From Candidatus Obscuribacterales bacterium (GTDB lineage Bacteria; Cyanobacteriota; Vampirovibrionia; Obscuribacterales; Obscuribacteraceae): a DNA stretch of 64,000 nt. Numbering within the stretch: the first letter of the stretch is position 1; every line of letters begins with the position of its first letter. The translations under genes were made by a program, and so were the position numbers. Of this stretch, positions 6,378 through 22,212 are shown one piece after another. Location of the stretch: contig JAGVKG010000069.1 of assembly GCA_020050685.1 (NCBI GenBank), positions 62,001 through 126,000 on the forward strand, in the 5' to 3' direction. A model generated the notes under the pieces. It was not told the DNA's origin. It saw only the letters and a list, made by a program, of their open reading frames with translations, and searched no databases.

Positions 6378-6839
6378 CATTTTAGCAGATTCTTGCCAAG
6401 TACGACCAGCCTTTGTTGCTCCAATATTGTGGCTAATCTGAGAGACAGGCATTTCAATGTCTGAGTCTTTTGAGAAGCTACTTAACCGTTGGAGAGTTAA
6501 GCCGCTAACTTCTATATATATGAATGTGTTTCTGTTAATGAAAAAATTGCTGTAACAGATCTCCAAGAGGGATCATTGGTATACAAAATCGACTCGTTGC
6601 GCATACGTAAAACATATTCACAGCGCGCTGTTTCAGCTCTTTGCGTCTCATTAACTCGTGTTATACTTGGCCTAGACAGACAGAGCCCGTCTGGCTTACA
6701 GGTTATCAACAAAACGAGCTAAGGGGCTCTAAAAGCAGCAAAGAGCTGATTTCAGTAGTTGACCCCACTTACCACCCATTCTGGCAATTCGCGGTCTGCG
6801 CTTGGGACCGGGGACAACCCTACTGTTAATGTGCCTGTC
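6378..6839. other. Spacer before the decarboxylase gene
   Basis: Carries the decarboxylase promoter region: TTGCGT at 6641 and TATACT at 6662-6667 (15-bp spacing) are the best sigma-70-like boxes. An alternative TTG start for the decarboxylase lies at 6759. No other gene is supported. Confidence 0.45.
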
Positions 6840-8276
6840 ATGCCGCTTACTTCCGCTATTGAAAAACATTTGAGTGCGGAAATTGCCTCGTTCCATATGC
6901 CCGGTCACAAGGGGCGTTTCACGGGGGAAGATACTTTGTTTCGCGGTGGTGCGCTCTGGCAATGGGACGTCACCGAGTTGCCTGGCTTGGATGAACTTTC
7001 ACAGCCGAAGGGTGTGTTGGCGGATTTAGAAGCACGTGCTGCGCGTCTCTGGAAATCGAAACATGCGTTGATTTCGGTGAATGGTGCGTCGGCTGGAATT
7101 GTTGCGGCGATGCTGGCACTTGTGCGATTTCAGAATACCGATCATGAATGGCCATACGCGGGTGGTCAGAATGAGATGCGCGTGGTGCGCAACAAGATTT
7201 TAATTCCCCGCAACTCACACCGTGCGGTCGTCAACGGATTGGTGCTTAGCGGCATGTATCCTATTTGGTACGAGCCAACCTGGAATGAAAGGTGGCAAGT
7301 CTGGGAAGCGGTGGCGCCTTCAGTAATTGCACCGATAATTGAAAAGCACAAGTACGAGCTGGCTGGAGTTTTAGTAGTATCACCTACTTACGGTGGAGCG
7401 GTTTCAGATATCGCGGCCGTTGCGCAGAAGTGCCGTGCGCATAACTTGCCGCTTATTGTAGACGAAGCGCATGGCGCTCATTTTTTGCCTGGCTCTGTGA
7501 TGCCACAGTCTGCCATTGGTCTCGGTGCAGATATCGTGGTTCATTCGTTGCACAAAACTGCACCGGCACTAACTCAAACGGGAATGGTGCATGTTGCGAC
7601 AGATTCTCGCGTCCCTGCGCATGAAATTCGCGCCGCACTAAACATGCTGCAATCGTCCAGCCCCAGCTATCTGTTGATGGCTTCCATTGAACAAGCAATT
7701 ATGGAAATGGAAGGCGATCACGGTATTGCCAGATTGGCAGAGCTTGTTGCGCTCGGCAATCAGATTCACACTGCGGTTGCCAAACTGCCTGGGCTGGCAA
7801 TATATGAATCTGCATTTGCAAATGATCCGCTGCGCTTCTTAATCAGTGCAAAAAATGCAACGGCACGGGAATTTGCAGAATTTATTGATGCATGGGGCAT
7901 CTGGCCCGAAACGATCTTGGGCAATGGCGTGCTCTTTATGATGGGCACTCATACAACCGATACGGATATCGATTGCTTGAAGTCTGCCTTGTCCGACTTC
8001 ACCAACACTGTCATCCTGAGCGATGCGAAGGATCCCTCAAGCGCGGCGAATTCGTCTCCAGAGAAATATCTCCCGCTAGAGCAAGTTATCTCTCCGCGCA
8101 AGGCATTTATGAGTCAATCGGAAGTGATACCACTTTCAAAAGCCGTTGGCCGCATCGCCGCCGAAACTATTGCGCCATGCCCACCTGGAATTCCAGTAGT
8201 GGTGGCAGGACAAAGAATTTCTCAAGAGCTTTCAGCACGCATTTCACTGACCAGTGTTAGGGTCCTTACGGAATAA
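6840..8276 (+). CDS. Orn/Lys/Arg decarboxylase family PLP enzyme
   Basis: From ATG 6840 the protein starts at the family boundary (MPLTSAIEKHL) and reaches the hallmark FHMPGHKG about 20 residues later. Further family signatures are VNGASAGIVAAMLA, RNSHRAVVNGLVLSG, VSPTYGGAVSDI, the PLP-Asp segment IVDEAHGAHF and the Schiff-base lysine in HSLHKTAPALTQTG. Members decarboxylate arginine, lysine or ornithine in polyamine synthesis; which substrate cannot be read here. GTG 6831 and TTG 6759 are other in-frame starts. Near residue 395 a foreign in-frame stretch (TVILSDAKDPSSAANSS) is an intergenic repeat inserted in the gene, see findings. Followed after 12 bases by the R3H ATPase gene, probably one operon. 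Confidence 0.88.
   Translation: MPLTSAIEKHLSAEIASFHMPGHKGRFTGEDTLFRGGALWQWDVTELPGLDELSQPKGVLADLEARAARLWKSKHALISVNGASAGIVAAMLALVRFQNTDHEWPYAGGQNEMRVVRNKILIPRNSHRAVVNGLVLSGMYPIWYEPTWNERWQVWEAVAPSVIAPIIEKHKYELAGVLVVSPTYGGAVSDIAAVAQKCRAHNLPLIVDEAHGAHFLPGSVMPQSAIGLGADIVVHSLHKTAPALTQTGMVHVATDSRVPAHEIRAALNMLQSSSPSYLLMASIEQAIMEMEGDHGIARLAELVALGNQIHTAVAKLPGLAIYESAFANDPLRFLISAKNATAREFAEFIDAWGIWPETILGNGVLFMMGTHTTDTDIDCLKSALSDFTNTVILSDAKDPSSAANSSPEKYLPLEQVISPRKAFMSQSEVIPLSKAVGRIAAETIAPCPPGIPVVVAGQRISQELSARISLTSVRVLTE
8009..8046 (+). repeat. Dispersed palindromic-type repeat inside the decarboxylase gene
   Basis: GTCATCCTGAGCGATGCGAAG then GATCCCTCAAG closely matches intergenic copies at 17590 and 31826 in this window. 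It is translated in frame as VILSDAKDPS. Confidence 0.65.
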
Positions 8277-8288
8277 TGGAGAAACACT

Positions 8289-9893
8289 ATGGAATTCATT
8301 CCACCTGCCGACGACCTTTCTTCCTTTCTGTCGATTCTTCCGGAGCGCGTGCGCAGTGTTGTCTCTAAAGAAACAAGCGGCTTAATAGAAGTAGTACTGG
8401 ATATCGGACGTTTGCCCGAGGCGCGCTATTTGGAGCGTCCCGGTGTTCCACTTTCCGACAAAGTAGTTACGGCTGCCGATTTAGAATACGCAATTGAACA
8501 TGTGGGAGAATTCTCGGGCGACAATCGCGCTGGTATTGAGCGCACGCTGCACAGAATTTCTTGCATGCGTAATCGCGCCGGCAAAATCATTGGTCTTACC
8601 TGCCGTGTTGGTAGAGCTGTAACCGGTACAATCGAAATTATTCGCGATCTGGTTGAATCAAACAAATCGATTCTGTTTCTTGGACCTCCAGGTGTGGGCA
8701 AGACAACGAAGTTGCGTGAAATGGCTCGCGTGCTGGCAGATGATCTCAATAAGCGCGTAGTTGTTATCGATACATCAAATGAAATTGCTGGCGACGGCGA
8801 TGTTCCTCACCCGGCAATTGGTGGCGCTCGCCGTATGCAAGTGCCGCATCCGGATTTGCAGCACGCTGTGATGATCGAAGCCGTGGAAAATCACACGCCG
8901 GAAGTAATTGTTATCGACGAAATTGGTACCGAAGCAGAATCTGCCGCAGCACGGACAATTGCCGAACGTGGTGTCATGTTGATTGGTACTGCTCACGGTA
9001 ACGCCTTGGAAAATCTTTTGAAGAATCCAACGCTTGTCGATCTGGTAGGTGGCATTCAAACTGTGACACTCGGAGACGAAGAAGCTCGCCGTCGCGGTAC
9101 ACAAAAAACTGTTTTGGAGCGCGCATCTCAACCGACATTTGAAATTTGCGTTGAGATTCTTGATCGTCAAAATCTTGCGGTCCACCGCAATGTGGGCGAG
9201 TCCGTCGATCAACTTCTCAAAGGTTGGAAGATCCATCCGGAAGTTCGCAGACGCGACGAATCTACAGGCAAATTCTCTGTGGTTCAAAAGGAAGTTACGC
9301 CAGTCCTCATGGACGATCATGTGACTATGGAAGACGCAGTCAATTTTGCGCCAGAGTGGTTGGCTCAGCAGGAAACTTTCCTCAAGATTTATCCTTATGC
9401 AGTAAGTAAGGGTCAGCTTGAGCGTGTCGTCAAAACAGCACAACTGCCGGTAACCGTCGTCAAATCAATCGACGAAGCAGATGCCATTCTTGCTTTGCGC
9501 AGCTACGCCCGCGCTGGTGCCAAGATTCACTCGCTTGCTGAGGCAAGACAAGTTCCCGTCTACATCGTGAAGAGTAACAATACTCCGCAAATTCAAAAGG
9601 CGTTGCGCGAAGCACTGCACCTGGATGCGGATGGTGTCGGCCAAGTTTCGTGGGAGTCCGATATAATGGACGAATCGGAACTTGCTTTAGAAGAAGCGCG
9701 CCAAGCCATCACGCGAGTAATGGATCGACAAGAGCCGATTGAACTTGCACCGCGCAAGGCATACATTCGCCGCTTGCAACATCAACTCGTCGAACAATAC
9801 AACTTAACTAGCCGTTCAGTTGGAGACGAACCAATGCGCCGCCTGCGCATTCTTCCGGCAAGCTCCTCCCAACGCAACTTGGGTTACATTTAA
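8289..9893 (+). CDS. Ycf45-type AAA ATPase with C-terminal R3H domain
   Basis: 534 residues. Residues 1-110 resemble the SpoIIIAA/Ycf45 N-terminal domain. A Walker A, FLGPPGVGKTTKLREMARVL, lies near residue 132, and a Walker B, EVIVIDEIGTEAES, near 204, typical of the RecA/ASCE ATPases related to the sporulation protein SpoIIIAA. A second globular part (LERVVKTAQLPVTVVKSIDEADAILALRS, around 375-440) precedes an R3H single-strand nucleic-acid-binding motif near 490-530 (APRKAYIRRLQHQLVEQY). Homologues are characteristic of cyanobacteria and chloroplast genomes (ycf45). The function is unproven. The ribosome binding site GGAGAAAC precedes the ATG. It lies 12 bases after the decarboxylase gene. 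Confidence 0.9.
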   Translation: MEFIPPADDLSSFLSILPERVRSVVSKETSGLIEVVLDIGRLPEARYLERPGVPLSDKVVTAADLEYAIEHVGEFSGDNRAGIERTLHRISCMRNRAGKIIGLTCRVGRAVTGTIEIIRDLVESNKSILFLGPPGVGKTTKLREMARVLADDLNKRVVVIDTSNEIAGDGDVPHPAIGGARRMQVPHPDLQHAVMIEAVENHTPEVIVIDEIGTEAESAAARTIAERGVMLIGTAHGNALENLLKNPTLVDLVGGIQTVTLGDEEARRRGTQKTVLERASQPTFEICVEILDRQNLAVHRNVGESVDQLLKGWKIHPEVRRRDESTGKFSVVQKEVTPVLMDDHVTMEDAVNFAPEWLAQQETFLKIYPYAVSKGQLERVVKTAQLPVTVVKSIDEADAILALRSYARAGAKIHSLAEARQVPVYIVKSNNTPQIQKALREALHLDADGVGQVSWESDIMDESELALEEARQAITRVMDRQEPIELAPRKAYIRRLQHQLVEQYNLTSRSVGDEPMRRLRILPASSSQRNLGYI

Positions 9894-16886: not shown

Positions 16887-17495
16887 TTAGATCACTTGCA
16901 ACTGTTTGAGCTGCAAAACTAAATCATCGAAACCAGTGAAGCGAATTGCCTGCATGCCAATTGTGGTGGCAGTGCGAACATTCGGTTCGAGGTCGTCGAT
17001 GAAGAGGCACTCGCTTGCAGATACACCTGCGCGCTTGAGCACCTCATAGTAAATCTCTTGCTCGGGTTTAGCGAAGCCGAGCTTGTACGAAAGAACCAGC
17101 TCATCGAACAGGCGCGCGAAGTTGTATTTCGCTTGCACGTATTCCCAACAACATGGATTGGTATTCGATAAGAGAATGACTGGATACTTTTTGCGCAGTT
17201 GTTGTGTCAGCTCAACCATTTGAACATTCTCGCGAAATGTGTGGTTCCACATATCGGGAAACTCATCGAGCGTGATGTTTGTGCTGAGCTTGGTATTGAT
17301 CTCTTGCAAGAACTGCTCGGTCGTCACGCGTCCATGCTCAAAGCCAAGCGTTGTCAAATAATTGAGAACGCTCTGATACTCTTTGCGACTCATGCCACTG
17401 CGCGCGCAAAACTGTTTGCAGATTTCATCCCACTCGAAATCAAGCACCACGTGCCCGGCGTCAAAGACCATTACTTTCAGTTCGTTGTTCTGCAT
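16887..17495 (-). CDS. HAD-family phosphatase (YihX-like)
   Basis: 202 residues from ATG 17495 (AAGGA upstream). All HAD motifs are present: I VMVFDAGHVVLD (nucleophile Asp; the second acid is His here, as YihX-type enzymes also deviate), II VILLSNTN, III lysine in KLGFAKPEQEIY, and IV CLFIDDLEPNV. The cap region between I and II is helical, as in subfamily IA phosphatases. It is a likely sugar-phosphate or nucleotide phosphatase; the substrate is unknown. The region before the gene contains two dispersed repeats. Confidence 0.85.
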   Translation of the reverse strand: MQNNELKVMVFDAGHVVLDFEWDEICKQFCARSGMSRKEYQSVLNYLTTLGFEHGRVTTEQFLQEINTKLSTNITLDEFPDMWNHTFRENVQMVELTQQLRKKYPVILLSNTNPCCWEYVQAKYNFARLFDELVLSYKLGFAKPEQEIYYEVLKRAGVSASECLFIDDLEPNVRTATTIGMQAIRFTGFDDLVLQLKQLQVI

Positions 17496-17540
17496 AATCG
17501 TCCTTAGTATACCTCGCAACATTGCAACAAATTGTCATCC

Positions 17541-18160: not shown

Positions 18161-20182
18161 CTAGCTTGCGGAGCGGAGAGAACGACGACGGTCCGCCTCT
18201 CTCGCTTTGTAGCGTTTGGACGATTCGATCATGCGATCGATGTCGTTCTCGCTACCCATGTTGGCCTCCGTTATCTTCCAGTTCGCGAAGAATTGTTTAG
18301 CTTCCTTCTTGAACTTTCCGCCGAGCGCGGAATCCAGCCACGCGAGTACGCCTCGCAGTGAATGGACACGACGCGTGGACATGCCGGGATCTTGCGCGAT
18401 CGTGAAGACATGACAGGCGATTGCTCTGTCGTTACCTTCAGCTGCGGAGAATCCAGCTCTGCCATCACTCAGGAAGTCGAAGAACTCCATGAGCGCAGCA
18501 GCCAGAGGCAGCTCGTCTTTGTGCGAATCACCGGTGTTCGGGTTGACTGGAAGTTTTGTTTTTCCATCACCCATAACACCAGCGATGTTTCGCAGTTCGC
18601 CCTTGCGGTTGTACTCGCCTTGCGGCAGAGGTTTACCGGCAAGTTCGCCGACCGAGAGACGATCGTTCTTGATCACATCGTAGTCGAGCTTACCGAGGTC
18701 AGCCAATCTACGACGCAGAGCAAGCGCGTTGCCTACATCAGCCTTCGCTTCGTGCGGACCGCTGCGATACATCCCGACCAGACGTTGGATGACAGAGTGC
18801 CATCCTTCGTGGAACATCACGCCGAGATCAAGGAACATCAAAGCAGCCAGCACATCGACGCCGCGACCGATCACGATTTCCCAATTGGTCTTGCTTCCCC
18901 TTGTGGAGAAGTGACCATTGTCGTCTTCGTTGAACGATGCGATTTCGAGTCGCAGTACACCGGGGAACCCGGGTACGTTGAACGTGCGCAACACGGCTTC
19001 GTGCCAGAGGAAGGTTTGAGCCATGGCTGCGCCCGCGCCCTGATCCTCACTCAGGTGATAGAGGAATGACCACTTGCCGTCGGGTCCCAACTTCGCGGTT
19101 AAGATGTGAAGCTTCTTGTCCTTGTCGGAGCCGTAATAGATCTCGACTTGGTTGGTCTTCAACTCTTTGACCGTGTTGGCGACGCCGGGCATTGTGTAAG
19201 GGACGAGGAACTTCTCGAAGTCTGCCATCGTTTCGCCCACAGGAACTGCGGGGAAAGAAAGCGTCTTCGATTCGTTGGTCTCTTCCTCTGCACGTTGCGC
19301 AGCGGCAGCGGCGATCTCTTTCAGTTGTTCCGCGTCCCAGCAGCGCAGCTTGAACGATTGTTCGTGCACCACCTCTGTTGTTTTGGTGTCAACATAGGCG
19401 TATACTTCATCGGACAACCCTTTCGCGTTCGTTCCGCCGACCGGCACCACTTTGAGCAGGCCAATCTTGCAGTACGTGCTGCCCTTTTCCTGATATTCCG
19501 ACCACTTCAGTTCCGGAGGACCGAGCAGTACGGGATTGTTCAGTTTGGTGTTCGCGAGCGCGCGCTCGATTGCCACTTCATCTGAACAAGGACTATCGGC
19601 CACACCCGGCTCCGGCGTACCAGGACGAATGTGAGCCGAGATGGCGACGACCTTCACGCGGAACGTGCCGCTTTTGTTTTTGGTCACCTCCATGACCACT
19701 GTCAGCAGACCTTTGAGCATAGGTGCGCTGATACCATCGTAGGAGAACCACTGATCGAACTGAGCAGTGATCAGTTGTTTGCCTAGCTCGGCGCCGAGCG
19801 TGTGGCGATTGACTCGACCAGCTTCTTTGAGGAAGAAGCCATCGCGCACGCCGAAGATTTCTTTCAGTGTGCGCTTGCGGTCGAATTTGGTGAGGAAGGC
19901 GCGTTGGATGTCTTCATCGGTCAGCTCGGTGTTGCCTTCGGAAGGCTTGACACCTTCGATGACCATCACACTGAGCTTGAAGTTATTCGCCCACTCGGGA
20001 AGTCCTTTCGGTCCGGGCTTGCCGATTGTCGTTCCGGCTCTTTGTCTCTTCAACCGTTTGACGGCGCGAAGGCTGACGACGCTGTCCGGAACCTTGCGGT
20101 CAGGCTCTTGGTTGACCAAATCTGTCAGAACATCTGCTGGATGCAGACCGAGTGATTTGGCCGTAAGTTCTTTATTGTGCAT
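18161..20182 (-). CDS. Large protein with HExxH zincin motif
   Basis: 673 residues, no signal peptide. Near residue 457 the sequence VMFHEGWHSVIQRL gives an HExxH zinc-binding helix. Some 16 residues further, GPHEAKADVGNA places an E-A-x-A-D motif resembling the third-ligand helix of thermolysin-like gluzincins (E-A-x-S-D). The long N-terminal part (1-300) is of unknown fold with an Ala/Glu helix near 300 (IAAAAAQRAEEE). The C-terminus is basic (KRYKAREADRRRSLRS). No standard peptidase family was recognised; it is inferred to be an intracellular or unconventionally exported metallopeptidase. GGAGG precedes the ATG. Monocistronic with a long upstream region. Confidence 0.72.
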   Translation of the reverse strand: MHNKELTAKSLGLHPADVLTDLVNQEPDRKVPDSVVSLRAVKRLKRQRAGTTIGKPGPKGLPEWANNFKLSVMVIEGVKPSEGNTELTDEDIQRAFLTKFDRKRTLKEIFGVRDGFFLKEAGRVNRHTLGAELGKQLITAQFDQWFSYDGISAPMLKGLLTVVMEVTKNKSGTFRVKVVAISAHIRPGTPEPGVADSPCSDEVAIERALANTKLNNPVLLGPPELKWSEYQEKGSTYCKIGLLKVVPVGGTNAKGLSDEVYAYVDTKTTEVVHEQSFKLRCWDAEQLKEIAAAAAQRAEEETNESKTLSFPAVPVGETMADFEKFLVPYTMPGVANTVKELKTNQVEIYYGSDKDKKLHILTAKLGPDGKWSFLYHLSEDQGAGAAMAQTFLWHEAVLRTFNVPGFPGVLRLEIASFNEDDNGHFSTRGSKTNWEIVIGRGVDVLAALMFLDLGVMFHEGWHSVIQRLVGMYRSGPHEAKADVGNALALRRRLADLGKLDYDVIKNDRLSVGELAGKPLPQGEYNRKGELRNIAGVMGDGKTKLPVNPNTGDSHKDELPLAAALMEFFDFLSDGRAGFSAAEGNDRAIACHVFTIAQDPGMSTRRVHSLRGVLAWLDSALGGKFKKEAKQFFANWKITEANMGSENDIDRMIESSKRYKAREADRRRSLRSAS

Positions 20183-20480
20183 AAAAGTCCTCCTGCTCTT
20201 TTGAGCGGATTGGGGTGAGGGTACGAAGCACCCGCTGAATGCGGGCGAGGTGAACAGCCCGACAAACGGAAACGCCCCGACTCACAAGCCGCCGCTGCTG
20301 ATTGCAGAAACAACATGTGTGCCGAGGTGATTTCGTTTATCGGGTGAGTTTTATCCGTTCATTTGTCGAACACCCATTTGGGCGCAGCACAACCCACACT
20401 TGCAGAGCAAATGTGTTCTAAGTTTCGAAAACTAGATTGGCTGTGACTTTGTGACTCGTGATACCAAAAAAATTTTGTGC

Positions 20481-21378: not shown

Positions 21379-22212
21379 ATGAAGATTAACTCGGAATGCT
21401 CCCGAGCATCACGCAATCTAAAACACTTTGGCAAAGAACCAAAGTCTTACCGCTTGAACCCACCACCCGCTCTCTCCACATGGTTGGCATTGTCGAAGCT
21501 GCCGCTTGAAGTTATGACGGACTTCTGGCGCACGCTCTACTATTGCCCGACATTCAATGGGACAAAGGAACCGAACTTGCACGCGAAGACAATTCTCCGC
21601 GTGCCAACTCCGAATGGCGAAGACCCACAACAATTCAACAAACGCTTTGTGGACTTCTGCAACATCCAAGACTCGGAAAGTGTCGTGCACTTTGCTCGCG
21701 CGATAGTGAATGAGTTTGGTGGCACGATCACGGACGACGCCCTTCGCAGCCTCAAGTCTCTGAGAAACCATGTGGCGAGCAACATGCGCCCGTACCCTGG
21801 TGCTCTGGAGGCTGTTGAGTTTCTGCGAAAAAATGTGGGCGAAGTCTGGATCGCTTCCAACGATGCAGGGTTCTATCGCGCGGAATTGAAAAAGCGCCTC
21901 GGTAAACACCTGCGCATCGCCATTTGCTCGAGCGATGTTCAGGCTGTAAAACCGACGCGCGAGTATTTCGAGAGAGCAGCAGCTAAGAGAGGCGTTCGCT
22001 TCGATCAGCTTTTGTTCATCGATGACAATCTCGAAAACGTTCTTGCCGCGACGAGTCTCGGCATAATGTCGATCCTGATTGTTGATCCGAACTCGACAGT
22101 GGAAATTCCGCCGGGAGTTAGGACTGCATCTTCCGTGGATGCAGTTGCACTTGCGTTTCAGCAAGCGTTGGAACTGCGACTTCTCAAAAGAAGGAGGAAG
22201 AAAGTATTTTAG
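21379..22212 (+). CDS. HAD-fold protein lacking the nucleophile Asp
   Basis: 277 residues. The C-terminal two thirds has HAD motif II (VWIASNDAGFY), the motif III lysine (VKPTREYF) and motif IV (LLFIDDNLENVLAATSLG), arranged as in subfamily IA. The N-terminal region, where DxDxT should be, contains no such motif: it reads PPALSTWLALSKLPLEVMTDFWRT. Without the nucleophile it is unlikely to be a normal phosphatase and may bind or sense a phosphorylated ligand. A basic tail (LRLLKRRRKKVF) ends it. GAGAGG precedes the ATG. Confidence 0.75.
   Translation: MKINSECSRASRNLKHFGKEPKSYRLNPPPALSTWLALSKLPLEVMTDFWRTLYYCPTFNGTKEPNLHAKTILRVPTPNGEDPQQFNKRFVDFCNIQDSESVVHFARAIVNEFGGTITDDALRSLKSLRNHVASNMRPYPGALEAVEFLRKNVGEVWIASNDAGFYRAELKKRLGKHLRIAICSSDVQAVKPTREYFERAAAKRGVRFDQLLFIDDNLENVLAATSLGIMSILIVDPNSTVEIPPGVRTASSVDAVALAFQQALELRLLKRRRKKVF

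Follow-up and report, generated by a model that had tools for sequence, protein, structure and literature searches.

An M36/M4-like metallopeptidase with a predicted FTP/PepSY-type prodomain and no visible signal peptide in Candidatus Obscuribacterales

Our analysis places an apparent orphan zincin from Candidatus Obscuribacterales, which are non-photosynthetic relatives of cyanobacteria, as a very fast-changing M36/M4-like member of a peptidase family from this group. The gene (hereafter the target) lies at positions 18161..20182 on the minus strand of the window, i.e. the whole stretch of 64,000 nucleotides that was analysed (contig JAGVKG010000069.1, positions 62,001 to 126,000), and encodes a metallopeptidase of 673 amino acids without a visible signal peptide. 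The protein is probably a fungalysin/thermolysin-type (M36/M4, clan MA(E)) proenzyme, most likely a self-cleaving zymogen that is stored in the cytoplasm. What had looked like an orphan is now a placed and testable enzyme, from a lineage in which a mainly secreted protease type appears to have been kept intracellular with a large inhibitory prodomain. The enzyme type itself is well known, and the novelty is the large FTP/PepSY-type prodomain kept without a visible signal peptide. If true, this would be a second case, beside protealysin, of how bacteria hold broad proteases safely in the cytoplasm. Among published titles and the opening parts of abstracts we found no description of this Obscuribacterales peptidase family.

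The open reading frame runs over 673 codons from ATG to stop. A ribosome-binding site, AGGAGG (20189..20194, minus strand), is located 6 nt 5′ of the ATG, and no in-frame ATG, GTG or TTG was found between this start and the preceding stop. Based on the base composition of the window, a simple estimate gives a chance of about 3e-15 for an open reading frame as long as this. GC contents at codon positions 1/2/3 are 0.61/0.41/0.65 and resemble those of the adjoining genes. An overlapping open reading frame on the plus strand (18362-19069) shows nearly the same values (0.61/0.42/0.65), so that composition alone does not settle the strand, and the gene was assigned to the minus strand by homology. 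The original prediction had described the region as coding for a 673-residue HExxH protein, and this description holds on the minus strand, with HEGWH at residues 458-462 followed by HEAKAD. Neither matches to Rfam nor tRNAs were found within the window.

Searches with the target alone returned no family: nothing over the cut-off in Pfam, no match in NCBIfam, and none among PDB sequences at E values up to 10. A match to the Pfam entry Inhibitor_I48 reached 11.8 bits against a cut-off of 21.3 and was taken as chance. A scan of the contigs in the genome collection that used only the target gave 7 pattern matches, and none of these was confirmed. Against 194 genomes the target recovered only itself and two weak matches (E 1.8e-4 and 2.3e-4) from the same bacterial family. 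It is through such a weakly matching relative, L002/L034 (611 aa), that the family can be recognised. This protein hit Pfam M36 (fungalysin, PF02128) with 28.8 bits at a cut-off of 23.3, and its own matches occur in 26 of the 194 genomes. In a sample of the bacterial class (146 genomes) all 26 genomes with matches belong to this same bacterial family, and in a sample of the phylum (386 genomes) matches were restricted to the target's genome and two others, the latter being weak and covering short stretches.

A 21-row alignment (A1) was assembled from regions of 20 of the 26 matching genomes. The region from the target's own genome (G000) is a paralogue, L052, and one row, L053, is partial (363 aa), whereas regions from G035, G015, G024, G031, G037 and G038 were kept out as near-copies or partial. 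M36 was matched by 14 of the 21 rows at E<=0.1. The target itself gave no match to PF02128 and is therefore filed as M36/M4-like and not as M36. A held-out HMM of 18 rows, built without the target (P0001), L052 and L053, detected the target in a set of 703 ORFs with an E value of 2.3e-13 (45.0 bits) over model positions 73-578 of 583, and the best of 500 shuffles of the target scored 4.5 bits against the same model. The target was not reported by a second profile, A2, made from 10 closer relatives. With the target included, the family profile matched structures of the fungalysin type (5e-8 to 3e-7) as well as 5a3y, the precursor of thermolysin, propeptide included (2e-7). The earlier statement that the protein belongs to no recognised family is thus true for single-sequence searches of Pfam, NCBIfam and PDB, but does not stand once the relatives are considered, which lead to the M36/M4 group. 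The further idea of a new metallopeptidase family was rejected, as the held-out HMM and the predicted fold both group the target with M36/M4. M36/M4 members as divergent as this one escape single-sequence and family-profile searches.

The residues of a putative active site are kept throughout the family. HEGWH (residues 458-462, 18797..18811), EAKAD (residues 478-482, 18737..18751), N422 ahead of HExxH (18917..18919) and H554 behind it (18521..18523), all on the minus strand, are present in 21 of 21 rows. HEGWH would provide two zinc-binding histidines, H458 and H462, and the general-base glutamate E459, while E478 is the candidate third zinc ligand and D482 the aspartate likely to accompany it. 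N422 falls into what we take to be the column of the thermolysin-type substrate-binding Asn, and H554 is presumably the counterpart of the transition-state histidine H231 of thermolysin. The invariance of H458, E459, H462 and E478 is what gluzincins of clan MA(E) would show and, as far as sequence can tell, bears out the original prediction of a gluzincin-type zinc site made up of HExxH and the Glu of HEAKAD. A loose HExxH...ExxxD pattern appeared in 8 of 5000 shuffled copies of the target; the motif is therefore uncommon, yet no proof by itself, and its invariance over all 21 rows is the stronger evidence.

The target does show peculiarities around this site. Compared with its relatives in the 21-row alignment, the loop between HExxH and the Glu is shorter, Pro is found at the D499 column (Asp in 19 of 21 rows), and two otherwise conserved positions are substituted (A379 to Gly, G434 to Arg). 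These changes might possibly weaken the activity of the target. They could also be read as signs of a decaying or repurposed pseudoenzyme, in which the copy in the window is losing its protease activity and would act, if anything, as a binding protein. The target has the longest branch in the tree (4.11 changes per column), and the stretched motif HEDTPGH, carried by one of its paralogues within this genome, indicates that degeneration occurs in the family. However, the open frame is full-length and carries a ribosome-binding site, and every zinc and catalytic residue was retained while most other columns changed, which makes a pseudoenzyme quite improbable in our opinion. The placement of the target in the tree is unreliable due to long branches. 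Five close pairs of family members, none of which includes the target, showed dN/dS values of 0.04-0.27, i.e. purifying selection.

A structure prediction, which had been proposed as a check for a zincin fold, returned a thermolysin-type two-domain catalytic fold for the target, at a mean pLDDT of only 58.7 (pTM 0.56, residues 503-548 below 50) and from an alignment that includes the target's relatives. In this thermolysin/fungalysin-like model, HExxH and E478 are predicted to sit on consecutive helices, which speaks indirectly against the refuting outcome named at the start, a structure whose HExxH residues do not converge. The predicted catalytic domain (residues 304-640; 18263..19273, minus strand) matched 4k90, 7qfy and 7z6t with a Z score of 22.2. 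The top four structures were all M36 proteases (Z 22.1-22.2, rmsd 3.5-3.6, 285-286 residues aligned), followed by M4 proteases (Z 17.8-19.6) and M1 aminopeptidases (12.6), and identity to the M36 structures over the structural alignment was only 13-14%. The model of a relative, L061, reached a pLDDT of 78.8 and matched M36 with Z 31.9 (rmsd 2.4, 299 residues aligned); here, M36 structures scored 30.9-31.9 versus 25.6 for the best M4 structure. The two models rest on alignments with the same sequences and are not independent. In front of the catalytic domain, residues 62-280 (19343..19999, minus strand) are predicted to form an FTP/PepSY-type prodomain, with a fold match to the propeptide of vibriolysin MCP-02 (3nqy_A; Z 11.2, rmsd 3.2, 163 residues aligned). 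At E<=0.1, PepSY was matched in 6 of 21 rows and FTP in one.

Among known proteases, the fungalysins (M36; 4k90, 7qfy, 7z6t, 7qp3) resemble the target in catalytic fold, for which they are the best structural match, in HExxH plus Glu, and in an N-terminal prodomain. The target differs from them by its low identity, its unmatched M36 profile and the lack of a visible signal peptide. Thermolysin and vibriolysin (M4; 1kei, 3nqy), which are secreted via a signal peptide, share with it the catalytic fold and the FTP/PepSY-type prodomain, but their structures score lower than those of M36. A weak profile similarity exists between the family and bacterial M36 proteases with T9SS, myxosortase and rhombosortase tails (NF038113, NF038112, NF038111). 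Ten of the 21 rows matched NF038113, with a best E of 1.2e-6, and one row each matched the other two. L034 scored 14.3 bits where the cut-off is 885, and the target gave no match. The lack of a visible signal peptide is a further difference.

In M4 and M36 proteases, folding is assisted by the FTP/PepSY prodomain, which also keeps the active site closed up to the point where the enzyme cleaves the linker. The target probably works in a similar way. Residues ~62-280 would then help the protein to fold and plug its active site, and a self-inflicted cut within the linker (~281-303) would set free the catalytic domain (~304-640). In the freed domain, H458, H462 and E478 would hold the zinc, E459 would activate water and H554 would stabilise the transition state. 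The zymogen would be stored in the cytoplasm and act there or at cell breakage, as reported for protealysin. Zinc binding, activity, self-processing, cytoplasmic location and substrate of the target are what we infer in this scheme.

The proposed location follows from the N-terminus. In a simple hydropathy scan of the first 50 amino acids, the maximum over 12 residues was 0.72 for the target and 0.14-1.35 for the 21 rows, versus 1.93-3.03 for 8 secreted relatives, which supports the original call of a protein without a signal peptide. Since no signal peptide is visible in the family, the target is most likely a stored zymogen of the cytoplasm. Alternatively, the same M36/M4-like zymogen might be exported without a classical signal peptide in order to scavenge nutrients or attack other cells, with the prodomain silencing it until it is outside. 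Most characterised enzymes of the M36/M4 fold with an FTP/PepSY-type prodomain are extracellular, and several of the M36 profile and structure matches carry the name extracellular metalloproteinase. Furthermore, 10 of the 21 rows (L034-L038, L043-L045, L051 and the target) end in a strongly basic tail, often with Arg runs, in which the last 20 residues have a net charge of +4 to +10; such a tail might serve in sorting or in binding. It is, however, missing from the other 11 rows, and the scan of neighbouring genes recognised none for secretion. L090 and L091, two relatives outside the family, are leaderless too by the hydropathy scan, so that leaderless proteins turn up more than once with no export route known for them. 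We consider non-classical export unlikely. For the paralogue L052, an upstream GTG start would add a hydrophobic stretch (2.25), and with this start L052 may be exported.

As a stored cytoplasmic zymogen, the target would have its closest working parallel in protealysin, a leaderless M4 protease whose structure (2vqx) matched the target's fold with Z 17.8. In the parts of the literature considered here, protealysin is described as an inactive intracellular precursor that becomes activated after lysis (PMC6778150) and as cleaving RecA and FtsZ (PMC9505478). In protealysin-like proteases, according to the same parts, the precursor region at the N-terminus is short and carries a PPL motif (PMC9505478, PMC6778150), and the operon encodes an inhibitor, emfourin (PMC9505478). 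In contrast to this short region, the prodomain of the target comprises ~220 residues, and the target does not classify as protealysin-type. A search for emfourin gave no match in the target's genome (G000). Within the bacterial family, 20 of 50 genomes have an emfourin match that exceeds the cut-off, and of these only G030 has it on the contig of the peptidase, at a distance of ~62 kb. The emfourin-family genes (L140-L143) stand away from the target-type peptidase, hinting at separate protealysin-like systems. It is conceivable, if rather doubtful, that Obscuribacterales harbour a separate branch of leaderless M36/M4 zymogens with a full-size FTP/PepSY prodomain, which would be active inside the cell or stored and released by lysis, possibly acting in concert with the two flanking HADs, and in which the prodomain would be the safety catch that replaces an emfourin-type partner.

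The target is flanked by two HAD-IA phosphatase-like genes, both of them conserved neighbours with family matches. One is located 638 bases downstream (16887..17522, minus strand), the other ~1.2 kb upstream in divergent orientation (21379..22212, plus strand). A downstream HAD gene on the same strand is found in 18 of 21 loci, 9 to 2999 bases from the peptidase as aligned, and a second one upstream on the opposite strand in 16; beyond the latter, 13 loci encode a TruD-like pseudouridine synthase, for which there was no match in the window. This shared gene order, with both HADs in place, identifies the target, divergent as it is, as the family's positional orthologue. The gene setting of the paralogue L052 (contig C4 of G000, L052:12476-14506; HEYVH) differs from that of the target. 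Another paralogue, L058 (contig C13:3608-4492 of G000; 798 aa), has HEDTPGH (HExxxxH) in place of HExxH and, judged by this motif, is possibly an inactive family member.

The conserved locus also bears on the suggestion, made at the outset, that the protein is a toxin or an effector. A toxin or an injected effector would suit a large zincin without a visible signal peptide, and leaderless protealysin has been proposed to act between bacteria (PMC9505478). Yet the gene order is conserved across the bacterial family, and no secretion or immunity genes were recognised near the target (9 other window genes; 10 conserved-neighbour or window genes). A search of 72,556 plasmid records with a family representative yielded nothing, no relative was confirmed in viral contigs, and emfourin was not found in the target's genome. 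The suggestion was not borne out, and we regard such a role as highly improbable. A phage origin was likewise dismissed, since 18 stretches in viral contigs matched a pattern and none of them was confirmed.

Among 50 genomes, the downstream HAD is present in 28, the peptidase in 26 and both in 25. A co-gained module of the two genes was suggestive at first but was set aside after two checks, one of contig edges and one of a neighbouring R3H-ATPase gene. In genomes with only the HAD (G014, G044, G048) this gene lies at a contig edge on the side of the peptidase, and in the genome with only the peptidase (G037) the contig end cuts the peptidase. The downstream HAD of G007 is 2.7 kb from TruD; their contig yielded no peptidase, and the peptidase of this genome lies on another one. 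The R3H-ATPase gene was not found in 16 of the 50 genomes and is 74-82% identical in most others. The contig-edge cases and the missing R3H-ATPase indicate that presence and absence mostly track assembly or loss of the region. The 16 genomes without R3H-ATPase are those without peptidase and HAD, and this shared absence might be due either to assembly loss or perhaps to a second replicon that bins apart.

Some further genes were observed around these loci. Positions 6759-9893 of the window hold an Orn/Lys/Arg decarboxylase-like gene and then a SpoIIIAA-like ATPase with an R3H domain. The interval that separates the peptidase from the upstream HAD contains small divergent genes (L034:5703-6389, L040:7839-8534 and equivalents) that show a GHDGD/CRAN-like motif among Cys pairs and form two groups of four loci. 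They had no match in Pfam, and no small open reading frame of this type was seen in the gap between HAD and peptidase in the window. In six loci (L043, L044, L045, L047, L048 and L049), a CobB/CobQ-like glutamine amidotransferase gene, assigned by Pfam on the L049 copy, separates the peptidase from the downstream HAD.
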